A stretch of DNA of 49,900 nucleotides from the NCBI GenBank assembly GCA_009693865.1, contig SHWL01000013.1, positions 1-49,900 of the forward strand. Direction: 5' to 3'. The stretch's first letter is position 1, and every line of letters begins with the position of its first letter. Shown piece after piece: positions 20,263-32,452 of this stretch. A program made the translations under genes and the position numbers. Under the pieces are notes generated by a model. The model ran no database searches. It saw only the letters and a program-made list of their open reading frames with translations, and was not told the DNA's origin. The stretch is from Acetobacteraceae bacterium. Its GTDB lineage: Bacteria > Pseudomonadota > Alphaproteobacteria > Acetobacterales > Acetobacteraceae.

Positions 20263-20325
20263 AATCACCGGCTCGGCATGGCTCGGACAGGCCGGGGCAT
20301 GACGGGCCGCACGAAAGGCCCGAAA

Positions 20326-25565: not shown

Positions 25566-26486
25566 TCATTCGCGGCATGACGCGTGCTCCACCATCCACG
25601 CGCAGAGGCGCGAGAAGCTGATGCCCAGATGCGCCGCCTGTTCCGGCAACAGCGATGTCGGTGTCAGGCCGGGTTGAGTATTGAGTTCCAGCAGTACGAG
25701 GCGGCCGGGCTCGCCACGCGTGTCATCGTAACGAAAATCGGACCGGCTGGCTCCGCGGCAACCCAACGCCTTATGCGCTCGCAACGCCACGTCCATCGCC
25801 TGAGCGTAAATATCCGAATGAATCGCGGCGGGAACGATATGATGAGACCCACCGTCGCTGTACTTCGATTCGTAGTCGTAAAACATGCCGGCATCGGCGA
25901 TGATGTCTGTTACCGCCAACGCCCGGTCGCCCATGACGCCGACGGTGAGTTCGCGGCCCGGAATGAACTCCTCGACCATCGCCATGGGACCGTAGCGCCA
26001 GGTCTGGACCACCTCGGCGCGGCGGTTGTCGCCCGCGCGAACGATCGAAACGCCCACGGACGATCCTTCGCTCACGGGTTTGATCACATAGGGCAGCGGG
26101 ATCGGATCGGCGGCGGCGAGATCCTCGACCGGAATGACCGCGCCGATCGCCACAGGCAGGCCGGCGGCGGCGAATATGGCCTTGGCGGATTCCTTGTTCA
26201 TCGCGACGGCCGAAGCACGGACGCCTGAATGCGTATAAGGAATGTCCAGCCAGTCGAGGACGCCCTGAATCGCGCCATCCTCCCCGAACCTGCCGTGCAG
26301 AGCGTTGAACACCGCGTCGGGCTTTGGGGTGAGAGCGGTCAGTAAGGCCGCGAGGTCATCGGTCACGTCGATCAGATCGACGTCGAAGCCCGCCTCCCGT
26401 AGCGCGGCCGCGACCTGCCGGCCGGAGGACAGACTGACCTCGCGCTCGTTTGAGATGCCGCCATGAAGGACCGCGACTTTGGTCAT
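25566..26486 (-). CDS. ddl: D-alanine--D-alanine ligase
   Basis: A 306-residue ATP-grasp ligase that makes D-Ala-D-Ala for the pentapeptide stem. It begins MTKVAVLHGGISNEREVSLSSG, the typical Ddl N-terminus, and ends with the Mg/ATP site ELNTQPGLTPTSLLPEQA. KPVSEGSSVGVSIV in the middle belongs to the ATP-grasp lid. The ATG at 26486 is chosen for the GGGAGAGA just upstream and homology of this start; a longer frame adds ten residues. It is separated from murB by 127 bp that contains a palindromic repeat, an unusual break in this cluster. Confidence 0.96.
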   Translation of the reverse strand: MTKVAVLHGGISNEREVSLSSGRQVAAALREAGFDVDLIDVTDDLAALLTALTPKPDAVFNALHGRFGEDGAIQGVLDWLDIPYTHSGVRASAVAMNKESAKAIFAAAGLPVAIGAVIPVEDLAAADPIPLPYVIKPVSEGSSVGVSIVRAGDNRRAEVVQTWRYGPMAMVEEFIPGRELTVGVMGDRALAVTDIIADAGMFYDYESKYSDGGSHHIVPAAIHSDIYAQAMDVALRAHKALGCRGASRSDFRYDDTRGEPGRLVLLELNTQPGLTPTSLLPEQAAHLGISFSRLCAWMVEHASCRE

Positions 26487-26548
26487 GAACGTCTCTCCCG
26501 ACCGAGGCATGCCCACGCTGCCACAAAATGGGGAATATCTGGTCCAGG

Positions 26549-26590
26549 ACCGTGCCGCGCCGGATGGCCCGGTCGAGCCGGGCCATGACG
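26549..26590 (+). repeat. Solo copy of 42-bp palindromic repeat (murB-ddl gap)
   Basis: A 42-bp repeat with the core palindrome ATGGCCCGG-tcgag-CCGGGCCAT (26564-26586; 9-bp stem, 5-nt loop). It matches two other copies in the window (30552-30593 reversed, 31036-31077), with 38 of 42 positions identical to the latter by eye. It interrupts the dcw cluster between murB and ddl and would form a strong hairpin in the transcript. Confidence 0.85.
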
Positions 26591-26613: not shown

Positions 26614-27570
26614 TCATAGTGAGGCCTCCTTCAGGATTGCTGGCACGCCGATCCGGCGGATTTCCCAATACAGATCGACCCCGGTGGCGGCTTTGACCCG
26701 GCGGCGGACTTCCTCGCCCAACGCTTCGATCTCGGTGGCCGTGGCGCTGCCGGTATTGATCAGGAAATTACAGTGCTTTTCCGACACCGCGGCCCCGCCA
26801 AGAGTGAGCCCGCGGCACCCCGCGGCGTCGATCAACTCCCAGGCTTTCATCCCGCCGGGCACGCTGTCTGGATTACGGAAGGTGGACCCGCCGGTGCGGG
26901 CCCGGATGGGCTGGGAGGCTTCGCGCGACGCCCGGATATCAGCCATTTTCGCCACGATCACGGGCGTCGCGCCAGGTTTCGCGGCAAGCCGCGCGCGGGT
27001 GATCACGCTGCCGGGTGGAACGTTGGCGTGGCGGTAACCGAAGGCCAGATCGGCCGGCGACAAACGCCGTTTTTCCCCGTCCCGCGTCACGCACTCGGCC
27101 CAGGAGAGGACATGGGCCATTTCGCCGCCGTAAGCGCCAGCGTTCATCGCGACGGCCCCGCCGATCGTGCCGGGGATCCCCGACAGAAACTCGAGCCCGG
27201 TCAGACCAGCCGCGGCGGCGGTCTCCGCGACGGTCAGGTCCAGCGCGGCGGCACCGGCGATAACGCCGTCGGGCTCAACGGCGATGGTGGAAAAACCACG
27301 CGCCAACCGGATCGTCACGCCGGGCAGGCCGCCATCGCGGACGATGAGGTTGGAGGCCGCGCCGATCACCTGTACCGGCGTGGTCGCGGGCAGACCCCGC
27401 AGCAAAGTCGCGAGGTCGTCAGTATCGGCGGGCCGAACCAGAAATTCCGCCTCTCCTCCGGCGCGAAACCACGTGAATGGCGCGAGCGGCGCGTTGGCCT
27501 GGACGCGTCCCCGGATCGAAGGCAGCGCACCGGTGGGCACTGTTGTCTCGATGCGCGCCGCCGCCATCAT
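26614..27570 (-). CDS. murB: UDP-N-acetylenolpyruvoylglucosamine reductase MurB
   Basis: A 318-residue FAD enzyme that reduces UDP-GlcNAc-enolpyruvate to UDP-MurNAc. FAD-domain signature [17 protein letters not shown] and [21 protein letters not shown] are clear; the catalytic Ser lies in GGSTFRNP and the Glu in YWEIRRIG at the C-terminus. The chosen ATG overlaps the murC TGA by ATGA (27567-27570), so it is coupled to murC. A longer upstream frame lies inside murC and is not expected to be used. Confidence 0.96.
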
Positions 27571-29000
27571 GCGGGCGGTCCCCGGCGCGTGTTGGCCTGC
27601 AGTGCCGTGAGTTCGGCGGGCAACGCGGTGGCCCATTGCGTGATCGAACCGGCGCCGAGGCAGACGACGTAATCCCCAGGTTTGGCGATCGCGTGGACCA
27701 TCTCGGCGAGGCGCGCGGGCGCGGGCAAAGGCACGACGCTGCGGTGGCCGCGCGCGCGCATCCCTTCGACAAGCGCGTCGCGGTCGATGCCAGGGATCGG
27801 TGCCTCGCCGGCCGCGTAAACATCGGCGACGATCACCGTCCCCGCATCGTTCATGCAGGCACAGAATTCGTTGAACAGAGATCGCAGGCGCGTGAAGCGG
27901 TGCGGTTGCACGACCGCGACGACATCGCGCGCTCCCGCCTGGCGAGCGGCTTTCAACACGGCGGCGATTTCGACCGGGTGGTGTCCGTAATCGTCGATCA
28001 CGGTGATTCCGCCGGCCTCGCCCGTGCGGGTGAAGCGGCGGCTGACACCTTTGAAGCCCAGAAACGCGTCGCGCAGGACGCTGTCGCTGATTTCCATTTC
28101 CGCGCCCACGGCGATCGCGGCCAGCGCGTTTTGCACGTTATGGGCGCCCAGCATGGGCAGGCGGAATGGGCCCATGCGACGGGAGCGATTGCGGATCCGG
28201 TCGGTGACAACGACCTCGAAGGTCGAGCCGGCCTTATCCGGATTGACCTTGTCGGCGCGGACATCGGCCTGCGGCGAGAAGCCATAGGTGACGATCCGCC
28301 GGTCCGACAGGCGCGGGATCATCTGCTGGACCGCCGGATGGTCGATGCACAACACGGCGAAGCCATAGAACGGAATGTTGGCGACGAACTGGTCGTAGCC
28401 TGCGATCATCGCCTCGGCGGTGCCCCAGTAATCGAGGTGTTCCGGGTCCATGTTGGTGACGACGGCGATGACAGCGGGCAGGCGGAGGAAACTGCCGTCG
28501 CTTTCGTCGGCCTCGACGACCATCCAATCGCCGTCGCCCATACGGGTGTTCTTGCCGGAAGCATTGATGATGCCGCCGTTAATAACGGTGGGATCGAGGT
28601 GGGCGGCCTCCAACATGCAGGCGATCAGGCTGGTGGTGGTGGTCTTGCCATGCGAGCCGCTGACGGCGATGGCCCATTTCAGGCGCATCAACTCGGCCAG
28701 CATCTCCGCGCGGCGAACGACGGGGATGAAGCGGGCGCGGGCGGCGAGAACCTCGGGGTTGTCGCGTTTGACGGCGGTCGAGACGACGACGACACGGGCA
28801 TCGCCCAGATTGGCGGCGTCGTGGCCGATCGAGACTGGGATACCAGCCTCCCGCACCCGCCGAACGTTGGCGGAGTCGCTGATGTCGGAGCCCTGCACAG
28901 AATATCCAAGCGTGTGCAGGACCTCGGCGATCCCCGACATGCCGATCCCGCCAATGCCGACGAAATGCATCCGTCCAATGGTGAGTGGCAGGGCCCTCAT
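27567..29000 (-). CDS. murC: UDP-N-acetylmuramate--L-alanine ligase MurC
   Basis: A 477-residue Mur ligase that adds L-alanine to UDP-MurNAc, the first stem residue. N-terminal nucleotide-sugar motif [25 protein letters not shown]-loop [15 protein letters not shown] (about 108-122), and [13 protein letters not shown] then [11 protein letters not shown] confirm MurC. It overlaps murG by 4 bp on its start side and murB by 4 bp on its stop side. Confidence 0.97.
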
Positions 29001-30142
29001 ACGCGCGCCTCCTGGTGGATGAGTTGCTCCACCACATCCGCGAGCGCCGCCGCCGCGCCCGGTTGGGCCACGCTTCGGGCACCGGTCGCGGCGCGCGTCA
29101 AGGCAGCTGGGTCCGGCAATAATTGCGTCAGGCCATCGGCCAAAGCGGCGGGCGTGAACATAGGTTGCGGCATGACCCAGGCGCCGCCCGCTTCGGCCAG
29201 GGCACGCGCGTTGGCGCTTTGATGATCGTCGATCGCGCCCGGCAGCGGCACCAGAACGGCTGGCCGGCCAGCAATGGCGAGTTCAGCCACCGAAGAGGCC
29301 CCCGCACGCGAGATCACCAGGTGCGTGGTTCGCAGCCGGTCGGCGACGTCCTGAAAGAAGGGTGCCATTTCGGCGGTTATGCCACTCGCGGCATAGGCGG
29401 CGCGGACCCGGTCGAGATCCTCGGCCCGGCATTGCTGCGCGATCAGCAAACGCGCTCTGAGTGCCTCGGGCAGACGCGCCAAAGCATCCGGCACGACGTC
29501 GCTGAACACGCGCGCGCCCAGAGAGCCGCCAAGGATCAGCAAGCGGATGGAGCCGCCCTGGATCGAGCCGTCGTGACGCGATCCGGCGGGCGCCTCGTAC
29601 CCGGCCTGACTCAATGCCGCGACGGCGGGCCGGACTGGATTCCCCGTCACCACGGTGCGAACGCGATCGGGAACGCGGCTGGTGGCGGCAAAACTCAGGG
29701 CGAGGATGCTGGCATGGCAGGACAGGAAGCGATTAGCACGGCCCAGAACGGCATTCTGCTCATGCAGCACCACTGGCGGCCGGTCGCGCAGCAGCCGCGC
29801 GCCAAGCACGGGGGGCACTGAGGGGTAACCGCCGAACGCGACCACGGCGGCGGGCCCGATCCGCGCCATGATGCCACGGGCCCGCGCGACCCCCGCGGCC
29901 AACGAGAAGACGGCCTTGCCGGCCCGCGCCAGCCCTCGGCCCGCGATCCCCGCGCCCGGCAGCACGTATTGATTCCGCGGGTCAAACACCTGGCTCCGCA
30001 ACGCACCCGAGCGGGCGTCGGTCATCAAAACGACCCATTGTCCGCGCTCGATCAGCGCGGCGGCAAGCGCCTCGGCCGGATAAAAATGGCCGCCCGTGCC
30101 GCCGGCGGCAATCACGATTGGGCGTACTTCCGGCCCTCTCAT
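28997..30142 (-). CDS. murG: Lipid II synthase MurG (GT28 glycosyltransferase)
   Basis: A 381-residue peripheral membrane glycosyltransferase that adds GlcNAc to lipid I. Motifs: [20 protein letters not shown] (G-loop 1, about 12-31), [16 protein letters not shown] and [14 protein letters not shown], then the UDP-GlcNAc site [32 protein letters not shown]. It has its own AGGAGA ribosome-binding site before the ATG. Unlike its neighbours it is not coupled to the gene upstream: a 1.1-kb block of repeats plus a GIY-YIG gene lies between it and ftsW. Confidence 0.97.
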
Positions 30143-30276
30143 GGCGAGTCTCCTCGGACGGTCGAGGTTTGATTCGCGATAGGGCCCATCGCCGCGCCTG
30201 GCCGCCGTTTATTCACCACGGCGAGATGCCCGACACTCGCCATGGTTCGATGGCTCCGACCCGACTCCGCGTGAGG

Positions 30277-30539
30277 CCCCTCACACGCCAACGCGAGATG
30301 CCCCTCACACGCCAGCGCGAGGTGCCTCTCACCCGCCAACGCGAGATGCCCCTCACGCGCCAACGCGAGATGCCCCTCACACGCCAACGCGAGGTGCCTC
30401 TCAAACGCCAGCGCGAGGTGCCTCTCAAACGCCAGCGCGAGGTGCCTCTCAAACGCCAGCGCGAGGTGCCTCTCAAACGCCAGCGCGAGGTGCCTCCCAC
30501 GCGTCACGGCGAGGGCCTTTCACACGTCGCGGCGAGGTG
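30277..30539. repeat. 24-bp tandem repeat array (about 11 units)
   Basis: Contiguous 24-bp units of the type CCYCTCAMACGCCARCGCGA+RRTG run from 30277. Units at 30397-30492 (four copies) are identical; units 1-5 differ at a few positions; the last two (30493-30539) are decayed. More degenerate copies are visible to about 30205 on the left. There are no spacers, so this is a minisatellite and not CRISPR. Being 24 bp long, units keep an open frame (MPLTRQRE on +, RHLALAFE on -), but no start, composition or neighbour supports a protein. Confidence 0.9.
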
Positions 30540-30551
30540 CCTTTTCTTACT

Positions 30552-30593
30552 CGTCATGGCCCGGCTTGACCGGGCCATCCGAACCGGCACGGC
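30552..30593 (-). repeat. 42-bp palindromic repeat, left flank of GIY-YIG gene
   Basis: This copy is in the reverse orientation relative to 26549-26590 and 31036-31077. Core palindrome ATGGCCCGG-cttga-CCGGGCCAT at 30556-30578. Reversed, it matches the right-hand copy at 38 of 42 positions by eye. The two flank the GIY-YIG gene as inverted repeats, with the same end pointing outward in each. Confidence 0.85.
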
Positions 30594-30692
30594 AGGGCGA
30601 GTGAGCGATCCCGCCGCAAATCGGCGGAGAGATCGAACGGATCCACCCCCCTGTTCGAACTTTCTTAACCTTTCCGCCGCCACAATCGCACG

Positions 30693-30983
30693 ATGAAAGG
30701 CGGATGGGTTTACATCATGGCCAATCGGCCATTTGGAACGCTCTATATTGGCGTTACAAACGATATCGCCCGCCGCGCCTGGGAACATCGCCAGTGCGTT
30801 GGCCCCGGATATACTGCCCAGTATAAAATTGTACGTCTCGTCTACTACGAGCCGTTCGACAATATCGTCACGGCCATCCGGCGTGAAACAAGGCTGAAGC
30901 ATTGGTCCCGGGCATGGAAGCTCGACCTGATCGAGCGTCAAAACCCAAGATGGGACGATTTGTTCGATCAGATCGTCCTGTGA
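30693..30983 (+). CDS. GIY-YIG nuclease-domain protein (YhbQ/UPF0213-like)
   Basis: A 96-residue single GIY-YIG domain: the two tyrosine strands are WVYIMANR and GTLYIGVTND, followed by the basic helix IARRAWEHR with the conserved Arg, and RRETRLKHWSRAWKLDLIE, the latter typical of the small bacterial group. GIY-YIG enzymes cleave DNA using Mg2+; the role of this stand-alone group is not settled. It lies on the strand opposite to the surrounding dcw genes, inserted between ftsW and murG, and is bracketed by inverted copies of a palindromic repeat about 100 bp upstream of its start and 50 bp downstream of its stop. No clear ribosome-binding site is seen. Confidence 0.9.
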   Translation: MKGGWVYIMANRPFGTLYIGVTNDIARRAWEHRQCVGPGYTAQYKIVRLVYYEPFDNIVTAIRRETRLKHWSRAWKLDLIERQNPRWDDLFDQIVL

Positions 30984-31285
30984 GACCACGTTCTGACAGC
31001 CTCGTCCCAATCGCGGTTGGCCCGTCTTCTCCGGCGCCGTGCCGCGACGGATGGCCCGGTCAGGCCGGGCCATGACGGGGAGGGAAGCCCGCGGGTCGCC
31101 AGGGAGGCAGTTGCCTGCCACGCGCGGATCGGCCCGGGCGGCGACGACGGGAGAAACCCGGTGCATCGCCGGGGGCAAGTTGCCTCCCGCGCCGTAACCG
31201 GCGATCGCGACGAGGTGAGGCATCCGCGGCATCGCGGAGAATAAGGGGCCACCTGCGCCGCGGGCGCCAATCGCAATGACGGACA
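30984..31285. other. Repeat-containing region between GIY-YIG gene and ftsW
   Basis: Contains the right-hand palindromic repeat (31036-31077) and then about 200 bp of GC-rich sequence with loosely repeated motifs such as GGGAGGCAGTTGCC (near 31105) and GGGGCAAGTTGCCTCC (near 31171). No coding frame is credible. Confidence 0.5.
31036..31077 (+). repeat. 42-bp palindromic repeat, right flank of GIY-YIG gene
   Basis: Core palindrome ATGGCCCGG-tcagg-CCGGGCCAT at 31051-31073, in the same orientation as the solo copy at 26549 and inverted relative to the copy at 30552. The GCCGTGCC end faces the GIY-YIG gene and the ATGACG end faces outward. Confidence 0.85.
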
Positions 31286-32452
31286 TCATGCCGCCTCCTC
31301 ACGCGCGGCCCCGTCCGCGATGCGCCTCTCCCGCGCCCGCTCATCCCTTGCCCTGGGCCGGGTCAGCGAGAGGAACATCCCCATGCCAAGACCGACGGCG
31401 ACAGCCGAGGAACCGCCGTAGGAGATGAACGGCAACGTTATCCCTTTCGTCGGCATCATTCCGAGGGTCGAAAACAGATTGATCATCGCCTGCAGCCCGA
31501 ACCCGGCAATCAGACCTGTGCCGGCGAGGACGACGAACAGATCCTGCTCCCGCATCAATCGCAGCAGGCCGCGCAGCACGATGAAGGCGAAGACGCCAAC
31601 CAGCAGCAAGCATACGGCCAGCCCGAATTCCTCGCCCACCACGGCAAAGACGACGTCGGCATGCACGTCGGGGATCGAATCCTTGACTGTTCCCTCGCCC
31701 GCGCCCTTGCCAAAAAGACCCCCGTTGGCGAATGCCTCCATGACCCGGTCGATCTGGTAATTGCCACCCTTCCCGCCGTACATGAATTGATCGAACCGGC
31801 GGCGCACGTGCGGCAGCAACGTATAGAGCATCACCCCGCCACCGCCCGCGAGGCTCACACCCAGGCCGATCCACAACAGATTGATCCCGCTGACGAACAA
31901 CTGAATGATGAACACGGCGCCAATAACGGCCATCATCCCGACGTCCGGCTGCTTCTTCAGGATCGCCACTATGGCGAGGAACAAGCAGAGCGCGATCACC
32001 GTGCCATGGAATCCGGGCCTGATACGCTGACGCGACAGCAACCAGGCCGTCGTCATGGCGAAGCACGGTTTCAGGAACTCACTTGGCTGAATACGGCTCC
32101 CCGCGATGGAGATCCAACGGAATGCCCCCTTGGTTTCGATCCCGAACACCAGCGTCATGGCGGTTGCCAGCAACGCCACGCCGCAGCCCAGGATCGCCAA
32201 TCGGCGGACCATTCGCGGCGGCATCATGGACACCACGATGATAATACCGAACGCGGTCGCAAGGAACGCCAACTGTTTGAAAATGAACAGTTCTCGGGAG
32301 GCACGAATCCGCTCTGCCACCGCCGGACTCGCCGCGAGAACCATGATGTAGCCGCAGCCAACCAAACAGCAGAGCGCACCAAGGGTCCAGCGGTCCACGG
32401 TGAGCCACCAGCGAGCGATTGGCGTGTTGTCGGCACGGGAGAAGGCGATCAT
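31286..32452 (-). CDS. ftsW: Peptidoglycan glycosyltransferase FtsW (SEDS family)
   Basis: A 388-residue polytopic SEDS protein with about ten membrane helices. The C-terminal family signature is LPFISYGGSSAVAVGLGMGMFLSL (about 343-366), and the extracytoplasmic RWISIAGSRIQPSEFLKPCF segment (about 115-134) marks the active-site side. FtsW polymerises lipid II at the septum together with FtsI. It starts in a 4-bp ATGA overlap with murD. The expected downstream neighbour murG is pushed 1.1 kb away by a repeat/GIY-YIG insertion. Confidence 0.97.
   Translation of the reverse strand: MIAFSRADNTPIARWWLTVDRWTLGALCCLVGCGYIMVLAASPAVAERIRASRELFIFKQLAFLATAFGIIIVVSMMPPRMVRRLAILGCGVALLATAMTLVFGIETKGAFRWISIAGSRIQPSEFLKPCFAMTTAWLLSRQRIRPGFHGTVIALCLFLAIVAILKKQPDVGMMAVIGAVFIIQLFVSGINLLWIGLGVSLAGGGGVMLYTLLPHVRRRFDQFMYGGKGGNYQIDRVMEAFANGGLFGKGAGEGTVKDSIPDVHADVVFAVVGEEFGLAVCLLLVGVFAFIVLRGLLRLMREQDLFVVLAGTGLIAGFGLQAMINLFSTLGMMPTKGITLPFISYGGSSAVAVGLGMGMFLSLTRPRARDERARERRIADGAAREEAA

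Follow-up and report, generated by a model that had tools for sequence, protein, structure and literature searches.

RAYT (TnpA-REP), an HUH-Y1 transposase, is the known enzyme of the REPs tagged with GTAG, and the REPtrons that contain it were described previously (PMC2817692, PMC3116915, PMC6006769). REPINs were defined by Bertels and Rainey (2011; PMC3116915). The CGTC-tagged REPs were defined by Di Nocera et al. (2013; PMC3733652), in excerpts of which they are reported from all alphaproteobacterial orders as well as from Neisseria and Rickettsia and are said to include dRS3 of Neisseria, named there as CGTC-1, and RPE-4/RPE-6 of Rickettsia. According to the same excerpts, these REPs "apparently lack a dedicated transposase", no tyrosine transposase gene is flanked by CGTC repeats, and "excinuclease ABC complex proteins" are among the REP-decorated proteins. 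In addition, excerpts of PMC6006769 report none or only few Y1 genes from Alphaproteobacteria.

Among the matches listed from the open-licence literature, no title or abstract opening linked GIY-YIG to REPs, REPINs, dRS3 or Rickettsia palindromes, and an earlier report elsewhere is possible. Searches of this literature that paired GIY-YIG with dRS3 or with Rickettsia palindromic elements found no paper, and the excerpt of one co-mention (PMC9465073) lists the two genes separately.

The GIY-YIG gene between ftsW and murG

The window, which is the whole 49,900-nt stretch of DNA analyzed here, contains part of a cell-wall and division gene cluster encoded on the minus strand, with a GIY-YIG nuclease gene on the plus strand between ftsW and murG. 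MurG (28997..30142, minus strand) scored over the cut-off of TIGR01133. FtsW (31286..32452, minus strand), whose gene adjoins murG, matched TIGR02614 with E=2e-89, which is below the curated cut-off. The GIY-YIG gene (30693..30983, plus strand) encodes 96 amino acid residues, of which residues 4-77 matched Pfam PF01541 with E=6e-12. It lies between two CGTC-tagged REPs. The left REP (30552..30593, plus strand) consists of the CGTC tag (30552-30555), a hairpin (30556-30578), a CC tail and an inner GCACGG box, and the right REP is inverted (31036..31077, minus strand), with its hairpin at 31051-31073 and its tag, read as GACG, at 31074-31077. The stem of the window REP is 9 bp with a 5-nt loop (ATGGCCCGG) in each flanking copy. 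The two 42-bp arms matched at 38/42 positions when counted by hand, and an inverted-repeat search extended them to 51 nt (30543-30593 and 31036-31086; 84% complementary), which ranked first among the 25 inverted pairs listed in a 6-kb stretch. Folded as single-stranded DNA, the flanking REPs reached -12 and -13 kcal/mol, with z scores of -4.6 and -5.0 against shuffled sequences. A solo REP of the same family (26549..26590, minus strand; z -3.9) is located between an ORF at 25566-26516, which by its appearance we take to be ddl, and murB (26614-27636). The gene, the inverted 42-bp repeats, the 9-bp-stem palindromes with the same end outward and the third copy, all of which had been described in an earlier sequence-only reading of this DNA, were confirmed, and the outward ends were found to carry the CGTC tags.

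From tag to tag, the REP-gene-REP unit is 526 bp long (30552..31077); its counterpart in Bradyrhizobium extends no farther than the tags. It lies inside the 1143-bp gap between murG and ftsW (30143..31285). A tandem array of 24-bp repeats (30276-30542; 11.2 copies, 88% matches) is also found in this gap, between the start of murG and the left REP. Elsewhere in the window, positions 20279-20299 contain a degenerate REP palindrome with 2 mismatches, followed by an ATGACG tag.

Among 42 aligned proteins, the invariant residues include Y7, Y18, G20, R28, H32, E65 and N84, which presumably have the catalytic roles of GIY-YIG residues and agree with the conserved Y, Y-x-G, R, E and N of this nuclease superfamily. 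By sequence, they fit an intact GIY-YIG active site. The protein is close to a bare catalytic domain, with PF01541 as its only Pfam match, and the closest solved structures by sequence are the UPF0213 proteins 1zg2 (E=1e-6) and 1ywl (E=3e-4). The dN/dS values of 12 pairs ranged from 0.02 to 0.29, which indicates purifying selection on the gene. GIY-YIG enzymes are hydrolytic and are not known to rejoin DNA, and movement of the unit would therefore need host repair.

The REPs are abundant in the own genome of the window, whose assembly comprises 4.48 Mb in 209 contigs and is 81% complete. The pattern GTCATGGCCCGGN5CCGGGCCA, with up to 2 mismatches, identified 347 copies, and the reversed control pattern 0, so that the repeat is more frequent than expected by chance. 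Inverted pairs spaced 47-48 bp apart, which is the layout of REPINs, accounted for 26/50 of the sites listed. An inner box of GCACGG or similar was common to most REPIN halves and gene arms among 20 copies examined, and the gene-bearing unit therefore resembles a REPIN with a gene in its middle. The short unpaired tail, which is CCA in the definition of the CGTC superfamily, is CCG in the window and mostly CCC, CCG or CCT in the other copies of this genome; CCA was found in 297/376 hairpins near genes of the wider samples, for which the four commonest tails were counted. PF01541 was found at four places of the genome, one UvrC-sized frame (685 amino acid residues) and three small subfamily genes, and all three small genes adjoin REPs. 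The second small gene is between 58-nt inverted arms that are 97% complementary and carry a different palindrome. This palindrome type, CCACGGGN5CCCGTGG, occurred in 35 copies with up to 1 mismatch, compared to 2 for the control. The third small gene has a REPIN upstream, and its other side is near a contig end. No match over the cut-off of PF01797 (Y1 transposase) was found in the own genome, where one weak, partial match had E=0.0016.

Association of the gene with tagged REPs in other genomes

Two larger samples were analyzed. The named sample consisted of the best 80 of 228 relatives from a scan. The class sample was drawn evenly and contained 289 genomes, of which 82 had a strong match (E<=1e-28); 129 loci from 79 of these genomes were examined and 7 listed strong places were left out. 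The search profile was built from 42 rows hand-picked from 83 proteins, and the class search is therefore biased toward this subfamily. The samples overlap: L036 is identical to L101, and L025 to L275, L056 to L273, L038 to L282 and L051 to L278 by contig number and position. After exclusion of loci whose flanks were too short, 74 of 80 named and 126 of 129 class loci remained for the inverted-repeat counts and 71 and 123, respectively, for the tagged-hairpin counts.

The best inverted repeat between the 400 bp upstream and the 400 bp downstream of the gene scored at least 36 in 52/74 named loci, compared to 2/285 control intervals in the same loci, and in 65/126 class loci, compared to 1/115 controls. 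Moreover, the density of outward tagged hairpins was 3.5-5.9 per kb at distances of up to 100 bp from the gene but only 0.0-0.4 per kb at more than 400 bp, and inward tags near the gene were a third to half as dense as outward ones. By a looser hairpin rule, 50/123 class genes had outward tags on both sides, compared to 2/115 and 1/120 shifted pseudo-genes (3/235 when pooled). For the named sample, the counts were 43/71 genes and 1/66, 3/69, 2/71 and 1/71 pseudo-genes (7/277 when pooled). Two-sided outward tags were thus about 32 times (class) and about 24 times (named) commoner than at pseudo-genes, and 38/79 class genomes had at least one gene tagged outward on both sides. A tag on at least one side was found at 97/123 class genes but also at 49/115 and 46/120 pseudo-genes, and a one-sided tag is weak evidence. 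No tagged hairpin occurred within 300 bp on either side of 26/123 class genes. In 97 units, the base before the left GTC was C in 66, T in 25 and another base in 6.

The sequence-only reading had considered the association to be chance if the GIY-YIG genes of relatives lacked flanking copies or if the repeats were frequent in genomes without such a gene. The first is not so: each of the 16 genes listed for the genus, including the three from the own genome of the window, had a tagged hairpin no more than 300 bp away on one side or both, and the two larger samples agree. The association is established and is far from chance, and explaining it as a small gene that happened into a REP-rich intergenic region has a probability close to nil. 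Although REPs are abundant and drawn to intergenic regions, and one-sided tags are common at pseudo-genes, the two-sided counts above and the control intervals rejected chance flanking. Other small GIY-YIG genes in REP-rich genomes also argue against it, as 0/5 of them were tagged on both sides and one on one side; accordingly, that any small GIY-YIG gene will do was not supported. These five genes, which by eye only look UPF0213-like, scored 13-21 bits with the subfamily model. The remaining 16 of the 21 GIY-YIG loci in this comparison (15 UvrC-sized frames and one fragment) had no match to the subfamily model and were not scored.

As for the second condition, the outcome is divided. The REP family of the window had 388, 347, 278, 217, 100, 81, 79, 24, 17, 8, 4 and 1 copies in 12 genomes of the genus, and the subfamily gene was absent at E<=1e-20 from the three with 79, 4 and 1 copies. 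Two of these three are only 80-89% complete, including G292 with its 79 copies (89%). Among the 289 class genomes, the median excess of a generic CGTC-REP pattern was 14.2 per Mb in the 82 genomes with a strong match and 6.7 per Mb in the 207 without (one-sided p=5e-14), where the background of the pattern is high and families whose tails differ, including that of the window, escape it. Thus, REP density was about twofold higher with the gene, but 22/58 REP-rich genomes (at least 16 per Mb) had no strong match to it. A PF01541 search of 15 of these 22 found only UvrC-sized frames in 11 and other small genes in 4. By analogy to the gene loss suspected for REPs in genomes without tnpA-REP in excerpts of PMC6006769, the REP-rich genomes without the gene may hold relics. 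The highest generic density, 83 per Mb, was that of a 1.7-Mb genome (G268) with only a UvrC-sized GIY-YIG frame. The number of strong matches was mostly one to three per genome and reached ten in G123.

The arms also belong to their own genes. Outward hairpins were within 250 bp on both sides of 50/129 class loci. More than one such gene was present in 9 genomes. There, the identity between left and right arms was 0.896 for the same locus (n=22) and 0.714 for different loci of one genome (n=36; permutation p=0.0006), which rejects genome-wide REP composition as the sole cause. For instance, the three genes of G296 each have their own palindrome. Across loci with an uninterrupted frame of at least 80 amino acid residues and an outward arm, arm identity dropped from 0.97 for proteins less than 10% apart, a bin that is inflated because loci recur across the samples, to 0.62 for those 40-50% apart. 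Overall, the co-divergence of proteins and arms was weak (Mantel r=0.26, p=0.001, 154 loci); it was not significant in the genus (r=0.08, p=0.27, 13 loci) or in a nearest-homologue test (p=0.18), and strict enzyme-palindrome co-evolution across genomes was not retained.

Similar arrangements were found outside the class sample, where 10/32 matching records of a plasmid collection, some of them chromosome-sized, were opened. Outward tags on both sides were observed in Aeromonas, Sinorhizobium, Novosphingobium and two Sphingobium records, and those of Planktothrix, Photobacterium and Rhizobium rhododendri were not two-sided and outward. In plasmid p3 of Azospirillum lipoferum (L291, 1354-1972), REP pairs are on both sides of a gene in the suf operon, between sufB and sufC, which is a second insertion into a core operon. 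Matching arms were also found at both Rickettsia loci, in some Desulfobacterota and in a MAG labeled Ignavibacteriae, where MAG labels may be wrong. In Neisseria gonorrhoeae, inverted GTCATTCCCGCG...CGGGAATC repeat pairs, which are taken to be dRS3, are located both upstream and downstream of the gene. A phage collection gave no match at E 1e-8. Finally, a related GIY-YIG gene is present in at least 7 near-identical copies in Legionella sp. PATHC038 (L071, L073, L076-L079 and L096). By eye, they lie just downstream of an apparent insertion-sequence transposase gene, and they share a common end about 360-366 bp from the gene start, near the palindrome GCCGCG...CGCGGC followed by CGTAG. As no matching REP arms were found and the genes adjoin the apparent transposase gene, they were rejected as REP-bounded units.

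Unit boundaries and occupied and empty sites

In Bradyrhizobium, loci L030, L032, L033, L034 and L042 have flanks in common and L035 has the 455-bp unit elsewhere. Compared with L030, L033, L034 and L042, L035 is alike over these 455 bp and has little in common with them outside CGTC...GACG: the alignment is continuous from CGTCATGG and ends at GCATGACG. Discrete ends and the same unit at unrelated sites, as are expected of a transposable element, were thus found in this genus. More broadly, 184 pair-locus rows were compiled in which homology did not reach as far as 300 bp from the gene; each pair contributed both of its members, Legionella pairs and pairs of longer homology were left out, and 9 rows had no upstream and 3 no downstream tag. 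An outward tag was no more than 3 bp away from the boundary in 79 rows upstream and 78 downstream, compared to 3.1% and 4.9% for random positions, where the rows are not independent because they share loci.

The L035 site was empty in related genomes. Both flanks without the unit were found in 3/4 other Bradyrhizobium genomes (G300, G301 and G303). In the fourth, B. agreste G302, only the left flank matched, and a REPIN that contains no gene lies some 85 bp past this flank. At the same site, G300 has by eye a REPIN-like pair of another family. Across species, this intergenic stretch (L298 and L301) has different CGTC-type REPIN-like pairs, which is reminiscent of a landing spot. The open frame of the L035 gene begins inside the REP (2456-2791; MAGLVPAIHV...), and automatic start calls may therefore translate the repeat. 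As reading frames can run into a REP in this way, some of the REP-decorated excinuclease entries mentioned above could be the present GIY-YIG genes.

An empty ftsW-murG junction in a sister strain, which the sequence-only reading had suggested to look for, was found in the sister species G295, in which ftsW and murG (87 and 81% identical to those of the window, respectively) overlap by ATGA. The 1143-bp insertion is longer than the 526-bp unit and also holds the 24-bp tandem array, which is missing between these two genes in G295, and other sequence. Because of this extra insert and of the diverged intergenic flanks in Bradyrhizobium, neither site gives a base-exact junction, and a precise empty site was rejected. 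No enrichment of flanking direct repeats that would point to a target-site duplication was found in 97 units, except for one single-case cell of 36. RAYT-type elements are not expected to produce such a duplication.

Explanations and comparison with known systems

The sequence-only reading had proposed an analog of the RAYT-REP system with an unrelated GIY-YIG enzyme. As an association, this proposal is supported; the role of the enzyme we infer from the anatomy and the unit boundaries. The explanation that we favor, with a probability of about two in three, is that the REP-gene-REP is a compact mobile unit, that the GIY-YIG nuclease is its cognate enzyme and that REPINs are its gene-less derivatives. 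The observations behind it are the outward tags on both sides, the arms specific to their own gene, the ends at tags, the occupied and empty sites and the purifying selection. Arguments against it are the REP-rich genomes with no strong match, among the genus also G292 with its 79 copies, the class genes with no tagged hairpin nearby, the Legionella copies, the weak co-divergence of proteins and arms, the lack of a target-site duplication and the hydrolytic chemistry of GIY-YIG enzymes. The nuclease would recognize the REP hairpin with its tag, in single-stranded or extruded form, and would cut it at its foot, near CGTC; host repair or replication would copy the REP-bounded segment to new sites. 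Gene-less REP pairs, which are most of the copies, would be served in trans, a relation like that of MITEs to insertion sequences. A broader version, for which the odds appear only slightly better than even, is that a small GIY-YIG nuclease serves as the long-missing dedicated enzyme for all of the CGTC superfamily, including dRS3 of Neisseria and RPE-4/6 of Rickettsia. It would then represent a second class of REP-mobilizing enzymes, with a chemistry unrelated to that of RAYTs, in which hairpin cutting and host repair, with no strand transfer, spread MITE-like REPINs.

The most serious competitor, which we consider unlikely, is a homing nuclease that parasitizes REPINs: the REPs would spread otherwise, and the gene would home into the center of a REPIN with the REPs as homology arms. 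GIY-YIG is a classical homing-nuclease fold, and the unit has the appearance of a REPIN split in the middle, with the inner GCACGG box common to REPIN halves and gene arms. In B. agreste, moreover, the gene-less REPIN is next to the left flank of the site that L035 occupies, at which the right flank is unmatched. The correlation across genomes fits homing as well, because more REPs would offer more targets. Homing, however, leaves the CGTC REPs without a mobilizing enzyme, as Y1 genes occurred in 56/289 genomes and showed no significant correlation with REP density (two-sided p=0.058). In addition, the arms of a locus match each other beyond other gene-borne arms, which random homing into mixed REPINs does not need. 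A domesticated enzyme is considerably less probable; the nuclease would then serve the replication or repair of the host by trimming or resolving REP hairpins, with the gene kept beside REPs for regulation. Strong purifying selection and the usual one to three matches per genome would suit such maintenance, but the same unit ends at its tags at different Bradyrhizobium sites, sites are empty in sisters, G123 has ten strong matches and 207/289 genomes have no strong match at all.

That a RAYT encoded elsewhere moves the CGTC REPs, with the GIY-YIG gene as a passenger, is more improbable still. RAYT is the enzyme of the GTAG REPs, a Y1 domain is found in the 56 class genomes mentioned above, and the own genome is 81% complete and has the weak PF01797 match. 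Nevertheless, neither the Y1 search of the own genome, with no match over the cut-off, nor the class correlation supported it, and according to excerpts of PMC3733652, CGTC repeats were not seen around any tyrosine transposase gene. The favored explanation, a mobile unit with its own nuclease, now provides a specific candidate enzyme of about 95 amino acid residues for the CGTC REPs, which makes the question of their enzyme directly testable in vitro. If it is correct, REP systems would have arisen at least 2 times around enzymes that are unrelated, and a GIY-YIG domain on its own would suffice for spreading a family of repeats. A function would also be suggested for genes whose only annotation is 'GIY-YIG nuclease family protein'.

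GIY-YIG homing endonucleases, whether free-standing or encoded in introns, have the same catalytic domain, and selfish spread by cutting and repair is possible for both. Different from them, the protein described here has about 95 amino acid residues and no second Pfam domain, and its gene is REP-bounded and associated with a large family of repeats that contain no gene. UPF0213 and other small GIY-YIG proteins include the nearest structures by sequence (1zg2 and 1ywl), but the five UPF0213-like genes, so classified by eye only, had no two-sided tagged REPs. Similar to REPtrons, the gene is between inverted tagged REPs, is accompanied by many gene-less REPs and inverted pairs, and a genome can contain several REP families, each with its own gene. 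However, the enzyme is a GIY-YIG nuclease (PF01541 only) and not an HUH-Y1 transposase (no PF01797 match over the cut-off in the own genome), and the tag is CGTC/TGTC and not GTAG (GT[AG]G). The REPs themselves have the features of the CGTC superfamily, namely the tag, a stem of 8-9 bp starting from AT, a loop of 4-5 nt, a high copy number and head-to-head dimers. In their CGTC tag, AT-starting 9-bp stem, 5-nt loop, head-to-head dimers and the first two bases (CC) of the tail, they are like those in the excerpts of Di Nocera et al. (2013; PMC3733652), where no dedicated enzyme is reported; here, a GIY-YIG gene lies between the REPs.
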